Shown: positions 1,291 to 34,766 of the stretch, piece after piece
Position numbering within the stretch: the first letter of the stretch is position 1
Layout of the letters: each line of letters starts with the position of its first letter
DNA from: a virus
Virus record (IMG/VR): IMGVR_UViG_3300020171_000074
Coordinates: 1-40,071 of that record
Reading direction: 5' to 3' (one strand)
DNA length: 40,071 bases
Program-made: the position numbers and the translations under genes
Notes under the pieces: model-generated
Database searches by the model: none
The model's input: the letters and a program-made list of their open reading frames with translations, nothing else
What the model was told of the DNA's origin: nothing

Positions 1291-2011
1291 ATTTATTAGG
1301 CAGAGTGGTCTGATAGATGGGAGTATATTTGCTACTCCTATCTGTGTGATAGGAGCAGGTGGTATCGGCTCGTTTACCACACTAGCACTGGCAAAGATAG
1401 GTTTCACGGAGATACATATCTGGGACTATGACATAGTAGAGGAACATAATCTGCCTAGCCAGTTCTATCCTATGGAAGCAGTAGATAGATACAAGGTAGA
1501 CGCTCTATATGATATGATATATGACTTTACACATGTTCAGTTAACTAAACACGAAGAGTGGAACAAGCACGAGCCTCTTACTGGTGTGGTGGTATCTGCT
1601 GTAGATAGTATGGACACACGTAGAGAGATATTCAATGCTATAACGGATAATCCAGAGGTGAGACTATTCGTAGATGGACGTATGGGTGGTAATCAATTGG
1701 AGATATATACGTGTAACACTATGTCTCAGGAAGATAAAAGGAGATATAGCAAGACACTATGCTCTGATGAGGAAGCCGCCAATACTCCATGTACAGAGAG
1801 AGCAGTCATGTATAATGTACTTACTATTGGCTCTTGGATAACTAACCAGATAAGACTGGTGTTATCTGATAAAGAATATAAGAGAGAGATGATACTGGAT
1901 ATGGAGAATATGATGCTGCTCTTGCCAGAAGAGAGGAAGGCTAAGAGAAGACGGAGAGTGCCTAATGTTATGCCTGTAGTAGAGAAAGTAGAGGTGGCAG
2001 ATGAAGTGTAG
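1280..2011 (+). CDS. ThiF/MoeB/HesA (E1-like) adenylating enzyme
   Basis: E1-like enzymes adenylate the C-terminus of ubiquitin-like or sulfur-carrier proteins. Visible family landmarks are the N-terminal Arg motif (RFIRQ, residues 4-8), the nucleotide loop V-I-G-A-G-G-I-G (23-30), the D-x-D-x-V-E-x2-N-L segment (49-58), Lys72, the V-S-A-V-D element (105-109), and a C-terminal core with Cys171 where relatives carry a reactive Cys. The paired zinc CxxC motifs of classical MoeB/ThiF are absent. At 243 residues it is a minimal single-domain form. The start is GTG at 1280 behind AGGAGG with 6 nt spacing, overlapping the previous gene. It lies between a JAB protease and a degenerate JAB-like protein, so a tagging or untagging role is inferred. 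No ubiquitin-like partner or E2 is obvious nearby. Confidence 0.85.
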   Translation: MENRFIRQSGLIDGSIFATPICVIGAGGIGSFTTLALAKIGFTEIHIWDYDIVEEHNLPSQFYPMEAVDRYKVDALYDMIYDFTHVQLTKHEEWNKHEPLTGVVVSAVDSMDTRREIFNAITDNPEVRLFVDGRMGGNQLEIYTCNTMSQEDKRRYSKTLCSDEEAANTPCTERAVMYNVLTIGSWITNQIRLVLSDKEYKREMILDMENMMLLLPEERKAKRRRRVPNVMPVVEKVEVADEV

Positions 2012-2429
2012 GATTACAGAACAGGTAAGAGATACCCTTGTAGATAGTAGTGATTCTGTTGAAGACGAGGACAGAGCAGAAGCATTTCTACTAGGGAGTG
2101 ATAGAGATGGTGTGATAGATACTGTAGAGAAACTACATGCTACTGGAGGGTGTCACACTCTACCATATGTTCATTCTGCTAGTATATCTACTGCTATGAT
2201 AAGTATTATAAAGAAAGATAGAAGCCCCACAGGTATAGCAAGGACAGGTAAGTTCAAGGCAAAAGGTAGTAAGAGACATCATATGATGGAAAATGGTATC
2301 ACTAGGTTGCTAAAGACCAGCAATGATATGTTATTTGTGTCTGTTGGCATAGATGGTATTATAGCAGAACTATGCCATAAGAAGGCTAGTGATAATATAC
2401 TACTAGATATAGAGATACTAAGGAGATAA
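2001..2429 (+). CDS. possible catalytically dead JAB/MPN-like protein
   Basis: The start overlaps the ThiF-like gene by 11 bp. I see a faint JAB/MPN layout: R-A-E-x-F-L-L-G (residues 25-32) resembles the catalytic-Glu strand E-x-x-G-L-L-x-G. Later, G-I-A-R-T-G-K (78-84) sits where G-x-x-H-S-H is expected, followed by S90-x2-H93 where S-x2-D is expected. If this alignment holds, Glu27 and Ser90 are kept while both His ligands and the Asp are replaced. MPN-minus subunits are known partners of active JAMM proteases. The resemblance is by eye only and could be wrong; otherwise it is an unknown 142-residue protein of the JAB/E1 cluster. Confidence 0.55.
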   Translation: MKCRITEQVRDTLVDSSDSVEDEDRAEAFLLGSDRDGVIDTVEKLHATGGCHTLPYVHSASISTAMISIIKKDRSPTGIARTGKFKAKGSKRHHMMENGITRLLKTSNDMLFVSVGIDGIIAELCHKKASDNILLDIEILRR

Positions 2430-2432
2430 CCT

Positions 2433-2888
2433 ATGGCTACAACTACGACTGGGGCTATACAGATAGGTGATAGAGTAGCATACGTGAGTGGTATCTATGG
2501 AGATACAGAACGTGCTAACCCTCTATGGGGTGGTAGACAAGGTAACGTATGCGGTGTAGTAGCTAATATAGATGACACATTTGGAGGTTATACTGTCCAA
2601 TGGTCTAATGGCACTCATAATGGATATCGCTTAGAAGACTTAAGACTTCTATCTAAAAAAGGGGAATTACCAGACGACCTACCCAAAGAGTTAACTTTCT
2701 ATGTCCGTGTAGCAGGTATCAACCTTAATGGATATTCGTATCTAGGTATAAATGCGGCACTTAAACTATATGAGGAATATCTAGCAAAAGCGAGAGGTGG
2801 TAGGAGAAAGAGTAAGACTATCCCGTTTGTAGACTGGCTACGGACACATACACCGAAGTCAACTACTACCAAGTATAGAACATGGTAG
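2433..2888 (+). CDS. unknown protein with an N-terminal SH3-like (MIB/HERC2-like) barrel
   Basis: It starts 3 bp after the previous stop behind AAGGAG. Residues about 11-75 look like a small beta-barrel: G-D-R-V-A-Y near the start, G-x-V-C-G-V-V-A-N-I in the middle, then V-Q-W-S-N-G-T-x-N-G-Y-R-x2-D-L. The last segment resembles the W-x-N-G-x3-N-x-Y-R signature of MIB/HERC2 domains, which in eukaryotes occur in ubiquitin ligases. That link is suggestive given the neighbouring E1 and JAB genes but unproven, since KOW/SH3-like barrels are common in phages. The C-terminal half (about 85-151) is basic and unrecognised. Confidence 0.6.
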   Translation: MATTTTGAIQIGDRVAYVSGIYGDTERANPLWGGRQGNVCGVVANIDDTFGGYTVQWSNGTHNGYRLEDLRLLSKKGELPDDLPKELTFYVRVAGINLNGYSYLGINAALKLYEEYLAKARGGRRKSKTIPFVDWLRTHTPKSTTTKYRTW

Positions 2889-2897
2889 GAGATATCT

Positions 2898-3359
2898 ATG
2901 AAGATAATAAGAGAACTGGAAGTATGGGCTATAATAACAGCGTACAATAAAGAAGATAATGAAAGTCCTCCAGAGGCTCCTGATAAGTTCCTTAGTGAGT
3001 TCATACCTAGAGTAACCAAACGTGCTAAAGAAATGCTTAACTCTCTAGATGACACTAAAGGAGCAGTTCACTGGGGTATAGAGGAAGATGAAGTGCCAGT
3101 ACAGACACTTGCTATAGACCCATCAAGTATGCTTTGGACTACTATGTCTCCTTCTTGGGCTCCTACTATGTTTGTAACAGGAACACCACCTAGTATGACA
3201 CAAAGAGAGTATGAAGCACTAGTACAGGCTCGACAAGATACAGCAAGAGAATCAATAGAAAGAAGCCTATTTGATGGCACTCCTACAATATCTGCTCTAC
3301 GAGAAGCAAGAGGAACAACAGAAGGAGGTGATGTAGAAAGTGAAGAGACAGAAAGATAA
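2898..3359 (+). CDS. unknown protein of the JAB/ThiF cluster
   Basis: This 153-residue protein starts at an ATG behind GTAGGAG. It has no Cys, which argues against an E2-type conjugating enzyme. The N-terminal third looks helical, the middle is rich in Pro, Ser and Thr, and the acidic tail repeats Glu and Gly. I recognise no domain. It overlaps the next gene by 20 bp in another frame, so the two are probably co-translated. Confidence 0.65.
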   Translation: MKIIRELEVWAIITAYNKEDNESPPEAPDKFLSEFIPRVTKRAKEMLNSLDDTKGAVHWGIEEDEVPVQTLAIDPSSMLWTTMSPSWAPTMFVTGTPPSMTQREYEALVQARQDTARESIERSLFDGTPTISALREARGTTEGGDVESEETER

Positions 3360-3645
3360 GTCATTGCCTAATCTACCTGCTGGTGTCACAGTAGGAGAGA
3401 GACCAGAACATATCGAGTTATCATCAAGAGCAGGTTCTGGTAAGTGGATATCAACGATAGAACACTTGAAAGAGATACGAGGGACAACCAAGTGTGTCTT
3501 GATACCACTAAAGGGCTTATCAGAAGCCAACCTTGCTGCAATCAAAGTTGGCATAAGGTCTACCGCTCGGAAGATGGACTTCAAGGAGGATATCAGGTAT
3601 GGTATCCAAGAAGATGTCCTCTATGTATGGTCTAACCCTATTTGA
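3340..3645 (+). CDS. unknown 101-residue phage protein
   Basis: The start is GTG at 3340, behind GGAGG at a rather long distance (about 11 nt), inside the end of the previous gene. The protein is basic at the N-terminus, has a central alpha/beta stretch, and ends in a V-L-Y-V-W-S-N segment. A similar Y-I-W-S-N occurs after the JAMM motif of the first gene, but that likeness is too short to infer kinship. There is no recognised domain. It closes the JAB/ThiF operon apart from one tiny membrane protein. Confidence 0.65.
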   Translation: MKRQKDKSLPNLPAGVTVGERPEHIELSSRAGSGKWISTIEHLKEIRGTTKCVLIPLKGLSEANLAAIKVGIRSTARKMDFKEDIRYGIQEDVLYVWSNPI

Positions 3646-3661
3646 CATATGAGGTGCTACA

Positions 3662-3757
3662 ATGAAGAGTATCTGGACATGGTTGTGGATAATCTTTATT
3701 GTCATACTTATGGTGATGTCGCATAGGGAGGAAGACACTGAAGAGGATGGGTGGTAG
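3662..3757 (+). CDS. 31-residue single-span membrane protein
   Basis: A short open frame starts at an ATG preceded by GAGG, 16 bp after the previous stop. It begins MKSIWTWLW, has one hydrophobic span over residues 8-19, and ends in an acidic, Trp-terminated tail. The N-terminus resembles the 31-residue membrane protein at 10457 (both begin MKxxxTWLW). The role is unknown; tiny single-span phage proteins can be lysis factors or host-membrane modulators. Confidence 0.6.
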   Translation: MKSIWTWLWIIFIVILMVMSHREEDTEEDGW

Positions 3758-3773
3758 TAATAGGTAAGAGTAA

Positions 3774-3842
3774 AGAGATATACATAGTATACTAGAGAGT
3801 ATAGAGTATATTGTGTATATCTCTGTATTCTTATGGTATAAT
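3774..3842 (+). promoter_or_regulatory. promoter with 11-bp inverted repeat (operator candidate)
   Basis: Perfect inverted arms AGAGATATACA (3774-3784) and TGTATATCTCT (3814-3824) flank an AT-rich 29-bp spacer. An extended -10 box, TG-G-TATAAT (3834-3842), follows 9 bp later, so the right arm covers where a -35 box would lie. This is the layout of an operator blocking a promoter for the zinc-finger gene string starting at 3874. No good -35 hexamer is visible, which fits an extended -10 promoter. Between 3758 and 3873 I see no coding sequence. Confidence 0.55.
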
Positions 3843-3873
3843 ATAGTAAGTAGACTAAAGGAGGAGAAGAAAG

Positions 3874-4260
3874 ATGAAAGGCTCTTGTAAATATCACTGC
3901 TATAACAACTGGTGCAACGCTAAACAAAAAGAAGTCAAGCTGGGAGAATGTGAACGGTGCGAGGAATACATAGAGTATATTATGAAAGCACAATGCAAAC
4001 ATAGCGATACAGGTTTATGCGGGGAATGTTTTAGGAAGGAGATATACAAGATTATTGATGGTCTTAAAATAAGTTGTTCTGTTTGCAATGCCTTTATAAC
4101 AGGAGTGGATAAAGATAAGATAGCCCACGCTCTCCCCGCTCATATCCCCGCCCCTGAAAAGGTATGCCCTATTTGCGGTAGTGAATGTGGATATGAAGAG
4201 TTTTACAAATGTCCCAAATGTCAAGGTACAGGAAATCTCCCCACACCTAAGGAGAAATAA
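3874..4260 (+). CDS. zinc-ribbon protein with several CxxC pairs
   Basis: This 128-residue protein follows an excellent AAGGAGG site. It contains at least six CxxC or near-CxxC knuckles: CERC, CGEC, CSVC, CPIC and a C-terminal CPKCQGTG that matches the CxxCxGxG repeat of DnaJ-type zinc domains. It probably folds as a chain of zinc ribbons binding nucleic acid or protein. It opens an operon of tiny genes whose codons are richer in AAA, GAA, TTT and ATT than the genes on either side, suggesting separate origin. Its last codons (KEK) double as the ribosome site for the next gene. Confidence 0.75.
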   Translation: MKGSCKYHCYNNWCNAKQKEVKLGECERCEEYIEYIMKAQCKHSDTGLCGECFRKEIYKIIDGLKISCSVCNAFITGVDKDKIAHALPAHIPAPEKVCPICGSECGYEEFYKCPKCQGTGNLPTPKEK

Positions 4261-4397
4261 TGAGATATTTTGTTAAGAGTGGTTCTAAAATTGATTGTCT
4301 AATGGGTGTCGCAAAAGAAAAAACCCAAATCAATCTTCTTTATTATTTATGGCTTACCCTTTTGGGTTATAGCACTTTTGCCGAGAAGGAGAAATAA
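4260..4397 (+). CDS. 45-residue unknown protein, translationally coupled
   Basis: The ATG at 4260 overlaps the preceding stop (TAATG) and has AAGGAG 5-6 nt upstream. The predicted product has an aromatic, hydrophobic C-terminal half (INLLYYLWLTLLG) that could touch a membrane. Like its predecessor it ends in KEK because the next gene's ribosome site is encoded in its last codons. An inverted repeat (AACCCAAA ... TTTGGGTT) lies inside. The start context supports it; the protein itself is not recognised. Confidence 0.5.
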   Translation: MRYFVKSGSKIDCLMGVAKEKTQINLLYYLWLTLLGYSTFAEKEK

Positions 4398-4576
4398 TGG
4401 CAGGGAACTGGAGAGATAAGACGTGTGAGAAATGTGAGTTTGGGGTAAATAACCGTTGTCATAGATTTCCCCCAACAACAATAGATGACAAAACTTTTTA
4501 TCCTCGAATTTCTAATAATAGAGGATTAGGCATAATTGATTTTATGAAGTCTTGTGCAGAATACAAGGAGTCCTAA
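4397..4576 (+). CDS. 59-residue four-Cys zinc protein
   Basis: The ATG at 4397 overlaps the previous stop (TAATG) with AAGGAG 5-6 nt before. The sequence shows C10-x2-C13, C21-H22-R-F-P-P and a late C52-A-E-Y. This matches a common small phage layout in which two N-terminal Cys, a C-R/H-R-x-P-P turn and a final C-(G/A)-E-(F/Y) bind one zinc. Function in this family is not established. It is too short for most gene callers but well supported by start site, coupling and motif. Confidence 0.75.
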   Translation: MAGNWRDKTCEKCEFGVNNRCHRFPPTTIDDKTFYPRISNNRGLGIIDFMKSCAEYKES

Positions 4577-4845
4577 TGGCAGGGAAGAAGAAGGTATCAA
4601 AGCATGTTTGCAATTTTAGGGAAATTAACAAATTTGGGAATCCAGCTTATCAATGTGGATGTGGAAAGTATATTATACCAGAAAGAGCTACTCCACCCTA
4701 TTTCATTGGAGAAAATAATTATATTAGTGGAGGAACATTAGAAGGCGTTTTTGAGGTATTGGAGGACTTACAAAGGAGACACGATGAAATAATAAAATAT
4801 TTGCACCATATTAGAAAACAACTGCCTACGGGCAAGAAAGGGTGA
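4576..4845 (+). CDS. unknown small protein with CxC knuckle
   Basis: I place the start at the ATG at 4576 (89 residues), which overlaps the previous stop and follows AAGGAG by 5 nt; an upstream in-frame ATG at 4552 lies inside the preceding gene without a site. The N-terminus is basic, then come H-V-C-N-F and Q-C-G-C-G-K-Y, consistent with a small zinc site. The C-terminal half is a predicted amphipathic helix. The gene's first bases resemble those of its upstream neighbour. Confidence 0.7.
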   Translation: MAGKKKVSKHVCNFREINKFGNPAYQCGCGKYIIPERATPPYFIGENNYISGGTLEGVFEVLEDLQRRHDEIIKYLHHIRKQLPTGKKG

Positions 4846-4846
4846 G

Positions 4847-5035
4847 ATGAAAGAAAAATTAAAGCCTTGTCCGTTCTGTGGGGAAAAGAATATTGATTTA
4901 TGGCCCCTGGAAGATAGAGGAAGAAAATTCAAGGCTCCTGTTTGTAATAATTGCGGAGGAACTATCTGTGAAAATTACGTTGCGGGGCCAAGCACAAAGA
5001 AACTTATAAAATTATGGAATAGGAGAAGCCAATAA
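4847..5035 (+). CDS. Lar-family-like zinc protein
   Basis: This 62-residue protein has the Lar restriction-alleviation family plan: an N-terminal K-P-C-P-F-C-G-E, a central V-C-N-N-C-G-G, and a C-terminal L-W-N-R-R. Rac prophage Lar lessens type I restriction of incoming DNA, but most phage members of this family are untested, so anti-restriction is only a possibility. It begins 1 bp after the previous stop within the coupled operon. Confidence 0.8.
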   Translation: MKEKLKPCPFCGEKNIDLWPLEDRGRKFKAPVCNNCGGTICENYVAGPSTKKLIKLWNRRSQ

Positions 5036-33110: not shown

Positions 33111-33206
33111 TTACGCAGCTATTGTGATAAGAACTCCAAGAGACTTTCTCCTGGTAGCTACGAGGTTAAGCTTAATTACTATCTGCATAACTCTATCTAA
33201 CAGAGC
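33111..33206 (-). CDS. separated C-terminal segment of the major capsid protein (putative exon 2)
   Basis: Downstream of the homing endonuclease, a frame without its own start encodes A-L-L-D-R-V-M-Q-I-V-I-K-L-N-L-V-A-T-R-R then K-S-L-G-V-L and stops at 33111-33113. The pattern (hydrophobic strand, N-L-V-A-T-R-R-K-S-L-G-V-L) is the kind of end found on phage capsid proteins, while the main capsid frame stops just before the endonuclease. If exon 1 ends after the CAT codon at 33762, this segment joins in phase and gives a 366-residue capsid protein. No ribosome site precedes it. Confidence 0.65.
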   Translation of the reverse strand, partial: ALLDRVMQIVIKLNLVATRRKSLGVLITIAA

Positions 33207-33763
33207 CCTGCAGGAACTACTACCTCAAGTTGCTCTTCCCTGAGGATTGGACTGTCGCATACATTGATGGATATACCATCAATGTCTTCTTCGCTCAGTC
33301 TCTGTAGGTGCAAACCACGATGATTTAAGGCTTTCATCTGCTGATACAATTCTTCACGTAGGGCTAATTCTTCTTTGGACAAACTCCTACGTCCAAAACC
33401 AGTATGCTTATAGCCATTTACACGCTTTTGAAATTGTATAGCAATACGGGCGTTTTCTTTCTTCAAGATTAAATAAGGCTCAATCTTGGTGAGAAAGTCT
33501 ACAGCTTGCTTTGTCCATAACTGCCATGCGTAGTAGTCAGACCATTTACCATTGTTGTTGTCTGCATGTTTATAGGGAGTCTCATTTACGTGCCCACTCC
33601 ACCAAGCTACCATCTTTTTTAGAGGAGCATTCTTAGTCATAGCAACACGTATATGTACTTGATACCAAGCAACTCCACTTGGACGCAATCTCTTATCTAT
33701 GGTAATTGTTCCTTCACCATCGATAAGACCAGCTGTATAGGCCCTCTTTACTGCCTTATTCAT
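33197..33763 (-). CDS. LAGLIDADG homing endonuclease
   Basis: The 188-residue protein has one LAGLIDADG motif (Y-T-A-G-L-I-D-G-E-G-T, 9-19), so it probably acts as a dimer. The middle (W-Q-L-W-T-K-Q-A-V-D-F-L-T-K-I-E-P-Y-L) fits the family. The ATG overlaps the end of the capsid frame. The expected family end lies near L-N-H-R-G (about 144-148); the last 40 codons overlap DNA with group-I-intron-like pairings, so they may be intron core read as protein. Such enzymes spread their host intron by cutting intron-less alleles; here the target would be the capsid gene. Confidence 0.88.
   Translation of the reverse strand: MNKAVKRAYTAGLIDGEGTITIDKRLRPSGVAWYQVHIRVAMTKNAPLKKMVAWWSGHVNETPYKHADNNNGKWSDYYAWQLWTKQAVDFLTKIEPYLILKKENARIAIQFQKRVNGYKHTGFGRRSLSKEELALREELYQQMKALNHRGLHLQRLSEEDIDGISINVCDSPILREEQLEVVVPAGLC
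33207..33761 (-). mobile_element. group-I-intron-like element interrupting the capsid gene
   Basis: The element lies between the two capsid segments. Near its 3' end (- strand) I see ACAGAGACTG, a 10-bp hairpin ACATTGATGG/CCATCAATGT (33285-33276/33270-33261) and GACAGTCC. GACTG (33300-33296) pairs with CAGTC (33254-33250) across that hairpin, the P7-P8-P7' order of group I introns. A CCTCA/TGAGG hairpin (33245-33241/33227-33223) then fits P9. Another 7-bp hairpin lies at 33374-33397. I could not resolve P1, P3 or P4-P6, and the exact ends are a best guess (exon 1 ending in T, last intron base G). Confidence 0.55.
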
Positions 33764-34766
33764 GGTCGCTTCCTAAGGATGACCTCAAAAGTTCTTCCGC
33801 CTCAGTTACGGCGTCGTAGGAGGTTTCTCCAGAATCAGAAGAAGTTTTATAACCAGTTAGATGTAAGTCCTTGTAGGACAACTGGTTAGGTATCGATTTC
33901 CACTCTGTAGGTGAAAAGTTAATGTCAGGGTCAATCACTAGACCGATGTATTCAGTATTAAGCATGTACATGTAACCAGCGGTGCACTGTCCCGACCAAA
34001 TGACGGGCTGGCCCTTGAAGGTTATCGTATCGACCATCGCATCAGCAGCCTGCTTGTTGACCGTCTGACGTTGTTCCATGACCTCATCTTCGTACAACTC
34101 ATACGAAGTCTGGTCAGTGACAAGCAAGTTCGGGTTCTGCGTAGCCATACCCTTACCGCAGGTATTATAGAGGTTACGCATGTCGCTCAGTAAGTAGACC
34201 GAAGCTGCACCAGTAGCCGTCTTGGTCTTGTTCTGCCACCAAGAGTAGGTCAATTGGTTGATGTTACCGACTGAAGTGCTGCTGGTCGGTGTCGGGTCTA
34301 TTAACTCTAACAGACCTTCAGGGTCCTTAGAGCCGTTGCCTGTACCATCTCCAAAGAGGAAGGTCTCGAACTTGTCGGTAAGAGACTTGGTCAGGTTGTC
34401 AATCTTAGCGTTAGCTAAGTTGAGATGCTGCGATTTCGATTTGTTCTTAGCATCGTCAGTATAGTAACGGACGATAGAACCAGCCACGAATTTCCATTCG
34501 TACTGCGCTACGGTGAGGAACTTGGTATCCGATATAGAGATAGTATCACCTCTACCCAAGGAAGTAACGGTTTCGTTCTTTCCATAGGAGAGATTAACTT
34601 CCAAATAGCGGCCACCAGTCCCGTCGAACTTGATACCGCCCCTAGCTTTCAATATCTTATAGAAAGTAGCATCGTCGAATAACTGGTCTACGACACCATC
34701 TCTACGATTGTTGAAAGTAGAAGCATACAAGTCGTCGAGCTGTTCTTCTCTGGTAGGATTAGCCAT
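33756..34766 (-). CDS. major capsid protein, main segment (putative exon 1)
   Basis: This 336-residue frame follows the scaffold gene. The N-terminus (E-E-Q-L-D-D-L-Y-A-S-T-F-N-N-R-R-D-G), the later S-L-G-R-G-D-T-I-S-I and W-K-F-V-A-G-S-I-V-R-Y-Y, and the N-P-N-L-L-V-T-D-Q-T-S-Y-E-L-Y-E segment fit an HK97-fold capsid protein of the kind used by many podovirus-like phages. It stops at TAA 33756-33758, 5 bases after the ATG of the endonuclease, without the usual terminal strand. That strand appears to be encoded at 33111-33206. Unspliced message would give a truncated capsid protein. Confidence 0.85.
   Translation of the reverse strand: MANPTREEQLDDLYASTFNNRRDGVVDQLFDDATFYKILKARGGIKFDGTGGRYLEVNLSYGKNETVTSLGRGDTISISDTKFLTVAQYEWKFVAGSIVRYYTDDAKNKSKSQHLNLANAKIDNLTKSLTDKFETFLFGDGTGNGSKDPEGLLELIDPTPTSSTSVGNINQLTYSWWQNKTKTATGAASVYLLSDMRNLYNTCGKGMATQNPNLLVTDQTSYELYEDEVMEQRQTVNKQAADAMVDTITFKGQPVIWSGQCTAGYMYMLNTEYIGLVIDPDINFSPTEWKSIPNQLSYKDLHLTGYKTSSDSGETSYDAVTEAEELLRSSLGSDHE

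Follow-up and report, generated by a model that had tools for sequence, protein, structure and literature searches.

Introduction

The major capsid gene of mycobacteriophage LittleE harbors a group I intron with a LAGLIDADG frame, whose splicing was proven by RT-PCR and protein sequence (PMC3706429), and a capsid-gene intron of the lactococcal phage Tuc2009 is known through a citation within the same report. For group I introns in general, the U-G pair at the 5' splice site has been described as critical (PMC8395846); here, we take this wobble as a near-universal hallmark, usual but not strictly defining. Furthermore, the single Rfam model is known to perform poorly for group I subtypes (PMC6125680).

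In this study, we analyzed a 40,071-nt stretch of viral DNA (IMGVR_UViG_3300020171_000074, hereafter the window), in which the major capsid gene on the minus strand is split by an insert that is very probably a mobile group I intron. The first-pass annotation of the window had already proposed a LAGLIDADG-bearing group I intron at this place, and this reading is well supported by our results. The same annotation considered the capsid gene an unusual host, a view that we abandon: 14 of 30 randomly sampled introns of the family described below precede a major-head-protein frame (some of these capsid cases may be near-copies of one another), which together with the LittleE and Tuc2009 precedents makes the capsid gene a usual home.

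Position of the insert within the capsid gene

Between 35000 and 32900 on the minus strand, the capsid ORF (34766-33756), identified as a major head protein by PHROG 9953 (E 1.9e-42), ends abruptly where a LAGLIDADG ORF (33763-33197) begins, its stop overlapping the start of the latter, and a start-less frame encoding ...NLVATRRKSLGVLITIAA resumes past the LAGLIDADG ORF, all of which had been seen previously and is evident from the ORFs. Fifteen capsid relatives were found in viral contigs, with a best amino-acid identity of 92%. In the 10 complete homologues (63-92% identity), homology to exon 1 ends at the insert edge, breaking off at residue 295/296 and restarting at 33200, and the protein reads ...WK.IPNQLDRV.QIV...RR.SLGVL..., either uninterrupted or with 1-2 residues inserted in that motif. 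Likewise, DNA alignment to the close relatives L001 and L002 ends at window position 33880 and restarts at 33201. The insert is thus polymorphic in its presence, being absent from L001, L002, and others, whose site is intact, and the alignment with intronless homologues confirms it and places it at 33881-33201 of the minus strand, giving the following arrangement:

33882..34766, minus strand: exon 1 of the major capsid gene, 295 codons (PHROG 9953 and homologues)
33201..33881, minus strand: putative group I intron, 681 nt, starting with TTGTCC and ending with CTCTG, omega-G at 33201
33111..33200, minus strand: exon 2 of the capsid gene, 29 codons and stop (codon changes relative to L001)

Since GTT is common to both insert edges, the edge itself is ambiguous by 3 bases; however, 33882/33200 is the only join with an intron-terminal G (omega-G) that restores the homologous protein, yielding a capsid of 324 residues. 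The join of 33762 to 33206 put forward earlier, with 366 residues, is therefore wrong. Exon 2 lacks a start of its own, yet its differences from L001 comprise 11 synonymous and 3 nonsynonymous codon changes, with 4/0/13 differing sites at codon positions 1/2/3, a pattern which argues that it is still used as coding sequence and which indicates purifying selection.

The stop at 33756 falls about 125 nt within the insert. Where the capsid frame reads through into the intron (window 33758-33837), the stretch YDAVTEAEELL resembles YDAVAEAEAIL of another relative, L011, third codon positions often differing between the two; this resemblance may have arisen by chance from the P5 stem, or may reflect real coding.

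Ribozyme core and intron family

Rfam searches at gathering and permissive thresholds gave neither a group I nor a group II match in the insert, RF00028 leaving it undetected even at the permissive threshold, and no named phage was matched when the intron was searched by blast. A motif pattern taken from the third insert of the L011 capsid gene and from the window insert was used to collect further phage contigs, which resulted in 307 distinct cores in 283 loci, a total in which the copy from the window itself (L141) and 26 contigs from bacteria or archaea are included. We then aligned the 3' half in 40 related introns, leaving out the window and L011, to obtain the covariance model R1. Within these 40, P7/P8/P9 are paired in 92.0% of cells versus 69.7% in shuffles, with a covariation score of 0.539 versus 0.150; 31 of the introns have A-U as the first P7 pair and the other 9 have G-C, mismatches being absent. 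The group I model match that the general Rfam model fails to give is provided by this held-out family model, which hits the window once, at 33308-33207 (49 bits, E 1.4e-15, E-values of R1 being rough), and scores the third L011 insert at 74.3 bits. The core elements, from the 5' side onward, are:

33882..33888, minus strand: P1 exon strand UAACCAG, complement of 33856-33850
33850..33862, minus strand: internal guide sequence AUCUAACUGGUUA, 13-nt complement of the ligated exons
33838..33844, minus strand: P3 5' strand CUUCUUC, pairing with 33292-33286
33830-33828 and 33779-33777, minus strand: P4, GGA with UCC, weak with 3 pairs (by eye against L011 and compact relatives)
33823-33820 and 33786-33783, minus strand: P5, CCUC with GAGG (by eye against L011 and compact relatives)
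33772..33775, minus strand: P6 5' strand UAGG, pairing with CCUA at 33308-33305
33300-33296 and 33254-33250, minus strand: P7, GACUG with CAGUC (held-out covariance model; fold centroid)
33292-33286, minus strand: P3 3' strand GAAGAAG
33285-33276 and 33270-33261, minus strand: P8, ACAUUGAUGG with CCAUCAAUGU (held-out covariance model; fold centroid)
33223..33245, minus strand: P9 hairpin CCUCAGG/CUUGAGG (held-out covariance model; fold centroid)

The P7-P8-P7' order and the P9 hairpin noticed in the first pass were thus recovered by both the covariance model and the fold centroid. Among the helices left without assignment at that time (P1, P3, and P4-P6), P1, P3, P5, and P6 can now be placed, and P4 is weak. 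P4, P5, and P6 were assigned by eye from relatives, P4 and P5 together spanning 33777..33830, while P7, the P3 3' strand, and P8 occupy 33250..33300. P3 is paired at 98.6% in 61 compact relatives, picked by a P3-independent motif, versus 76% in shuffles. The guide comprises CUGGUUA, pairing with exon 1 (P1), and AUCUAA, which forms P10 with the initial six bases of exon 2, and as a whole forms a perfect complement of the ligated junction UAACCAG/UUAGAU that occurs once in the window. Hence, the insert carries a near-complete group I core with P1, P10, P3, P5, P6, P7, P8, P9, and the weak P4, and displays the marks of this class, namely a P7/P8 core with pseudoknotted P3, a guide for both P1 and P10, and a terminal omega-G. 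The group I reading is further supported by the related intron in the L011 capsid gene, located 10 nt upstream, in which P3, P6 (CAAG/CUUG), and P7 are changed on both sides with pairing kept; in comparison with L011, the two strands of P5 as assigned in the window differ as well.

Several observations on the wider family were made in passing. In L118, L187, L191, L075, and L077, compact family introns are paired at about 230-250 nt from each other, a spacing that implies very small exons or tandem introns. In L017 (5750-6830), the capsid gene of another phage type has two adjacent introns, one with an endonuclease on the opposite strand. Copies of the core are likewise present in assemblies of cellular origin (L142-L167, from bacteria and archaea, with model scores of 45-79 bits), including several Omnitrophota, Caldisericales, and one Methanoregulaceae archaeon; these copies may be prophages.

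The LAGLIDADG endonuclease

The insert further contains:

33197..33763, minus strand: LAGLIDADG endonuclease ORF, 188 codons, start in the P6 loop (PHROG 5046 over residues 5-150)

Residues 1-150 constitute the enzyme domain, with the motif AGLIDGEG. A profile of 27 P6-loop endonucleases from the intron family matches I-MsoI, I-CvuI, and I-CreI (E 1.9e-29 for single-chain I-MsoI, about 1e-13 for I-CreI), and PF00961 is matched by 16 of the 27, the window protein reaching it only at E 0.033. By its motif, these profile matches, and a confident structure prediction for residues 1-150 (see below), the window protein is assigned to the single-motif LAGLIDADG enzymes of the I-CreI/I-MsoI type, with their alpha-beta fold; close relatives sought in viral contigs were not found.

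As claimed earlier, the endonuclease frame extends across the core as far as the 3' junction, traversing P7-P8-P9 and stopping just inside exon 2 (33199-33197), but it begins 119 nt within the insert instead of at the 5' junction. AlphaFold predicted the window enzyme with pLDDT mostly above 90 up to residue 150 and of 51-56 from residue 151, and as this drop lies about two codons ahead of the 3' core half (33308), the final 38 codons seem to be no more than ribozyme sequence read as protein. In the 27 scored family endonucleases (26 others and one two-motif enzyme), 24 extend into P7 and 13 go beyond the end of P7', so that core overlap is common in the family; overlap of group I elements and nuclease genes has also been reported in Bastillevirinae phages (PMC11878797). 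The idea that the ribozyme-encoded tail is conserved as protein had to be dismissed, since the frame stops before or inside P7 in 13 of 27 relatives, and one member of the near-identical pair L111/L121 stops early.

The 5' splice-site pair and alternative readings

In this family, the splice-site pair has a fixed register, 19 nt upstream of J3/4. With L141 left out, 150 relatives have a readable P1, of which 138 show U-G at this register and 3 C-G, the other 9 giving mixed pairs in which P1 is possibly misread. A family minority (L092, L105, L114, L119, L134) has a different P1, with a GCGAAA or GGUAAC loop and a bulge near the splice site, and its splice-site pair is unreadable. At the same register, the window has G-C within a perfect seven-pair P1; the U-G wobble is absent, and none of the in-frame alternative joins in the window would create it. 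This leaves three options: the intron may tolerate G-C, its splicing may be poor, or a neighboring U-A pair may serve instead. We tentatively consider the first option, namely a natural and active group I intron that might splice at a Watson-Crick G-C pair, its guide base changed from G to C so as to fit a coding site without U there; this is plausible, though less likely than not.

The second option, a degenerate or dying group I intron left with poor activity in a defective or slow-splicing phage, we regard as unlikely: although it would account for both the weak P4 and the loss of the pair that nearly all relatives retain, the guide matches exon 1 and exon 2 perfectly, the changed base included, and both exon 2 and the endonuclease frame have remained intact. 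Somewhat less likely still is the use of another splice site, namely a U at -1 (33881 or 33880) paired to a guide A, combined with a different 3' site. Two U-A pairs can indeed extend P1, and several in-frame U(-1)/omega-G joins can be drawn, such as 33881/33196 (giving NQYRVMQ) and 33880/33207 (giving NQLALLDRV); besides lacking the U-G pair, however, all of them alter the strongly conserved IPNQLDRV, and P10 fits the 33882/33200 join only.

It is very improbable that the capsid gene was just invaded by an endonuclease gene and now remains unspliced, ending at GSDHE. In favor of this, the 336-codon frame is open and adjoins the endonuclease start, but homologues naturally ending at GSDHE were sought and none occurs among the relatives, the last 29 residues are kept in 10 of 10 complete homologues and still evolve as coding in the window, and the group I core sits exactly in the insert. 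Finally, LAGLIDADG frames occur in inteins and a few group II introns, but either class can practically be discarded here, as the stop in the host frame within the insert precludes an intein, and the 5' end TTGTCC instead of GUGYG, together with the missing Rfam group II match at E up to 10, speaks against group II.

The reading as a mobile group I intron therefore stands as the preferred one, with further support from the fact that I-MsoI and I-CreI are known intron-homing enzymes, and with the G-C pair at the fixed register, the three-pair P4, and the RF00028 miss counting against it.

Proposed splicing and homing

We infer the following course of catalysis, splice-site choice, coupled translation, and homing. 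Folding of the pre-mRNA would bring the guide into pairing with both exons, forming P1 with the last bases of exon 1 and P10 with the first bases of exon 2. P7 would bind an external guanosine, which would attack after CCUAACCAG, whereupon the freed exon 1 would attack after the omega-G (33201), giving a ligated mRNA for the normal 324-residue capsid. Because the endonuclease frame shares sequence with the ribozyme core and has its stop in exon 2, the enzyme would be made from the unspliced precursor only. In this RNA, the capsid frame ends at the endonuclease start codon (ATGAATAA), which might allow coupled translation, and a Shine-Dalgarno-like AGGA ahead of the endonuclease, overlapped by the P6 5' strand, might be masked by P6. 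The endonuclease would then cut intronless capsid genes at the conserved site, and repair would copy the intron in. Translational coupling of host and endonuclease frames as a family trait was rejected, as stop and start lie within 10 nt only in the window, L011, L100, and possibly L082 among 28 introns tested.

Few phage messages are expressed as heavily as capsid mRNA, so its splicing must be efficient, making a capsid-gene intron a strong test of ribozyme performance. With the predicted G-C pair, a natural sequence would offer a direct test of whether the U-G wobble is required, and G-C splicing, if it holds true, would illustrate how group I introns gain access to sites from which they are normally barred. 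Moreover, the intron is a member of a large phage family missed by the general Rfam model, so that in viral contigs many structural genes that are in fact split probably carry a wrong annotation as truncated.

Comparison with known systems

The kind of element described here is already known, and its deviant feature is the splice-site pair. The LittleE intron shares with it the location in a major capsid gene, a similar size (about 0.8 kb), a LAGLIDADG frame, and restoration of the capsid frame upon removal, but differs in having its endonuclease on the opposite strand, U(-1) together with omega-G, another insertion site, and another phage. The capsid gene of L011 (IMGVR_UViG_3300009285_000212; L018 is the same record, with the gene on its reverse strand at 1959-4994) contains three inserts (2007-2671, ~3149-3846, and ~4201-4901), and a LAGLIDADG frame lies in every one of them. 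Rfam group I recognizes the second alone (35.7 bits, E 8e-7), and membership in the window's intron family is limited to the third. This third intron resides in the same gene and likewise has a P6-loop LAGLIDADG frame reading through the core, whereas its position 10 nt upstream, its usual U-G pair, and an endonuclease only 22-24% identical set it apart. Compact phage introns (e.g., in L016, L024, L047, and the CRP-118 insert) have the GAGACTRAGCG ... GCRAYAGTCC core motifs and the 19-nt register in common with the window, but carry no open frame and show U-G at the splice site where P1 is readable. In Roseobacter phage CRP-118 (L358, 2496-2895), the family intron is unannotated and lies between two CDS both named ribonucleotide reductase, which are probably one split gene. 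At the protein level, I-CreI and I-MsoI are, like the window enzyme, single-motif LAGLIDADG enzymes of group I introns, from which the latter is distinguished by low identity and by a 38-residue tail encoded by the ribozyme core.
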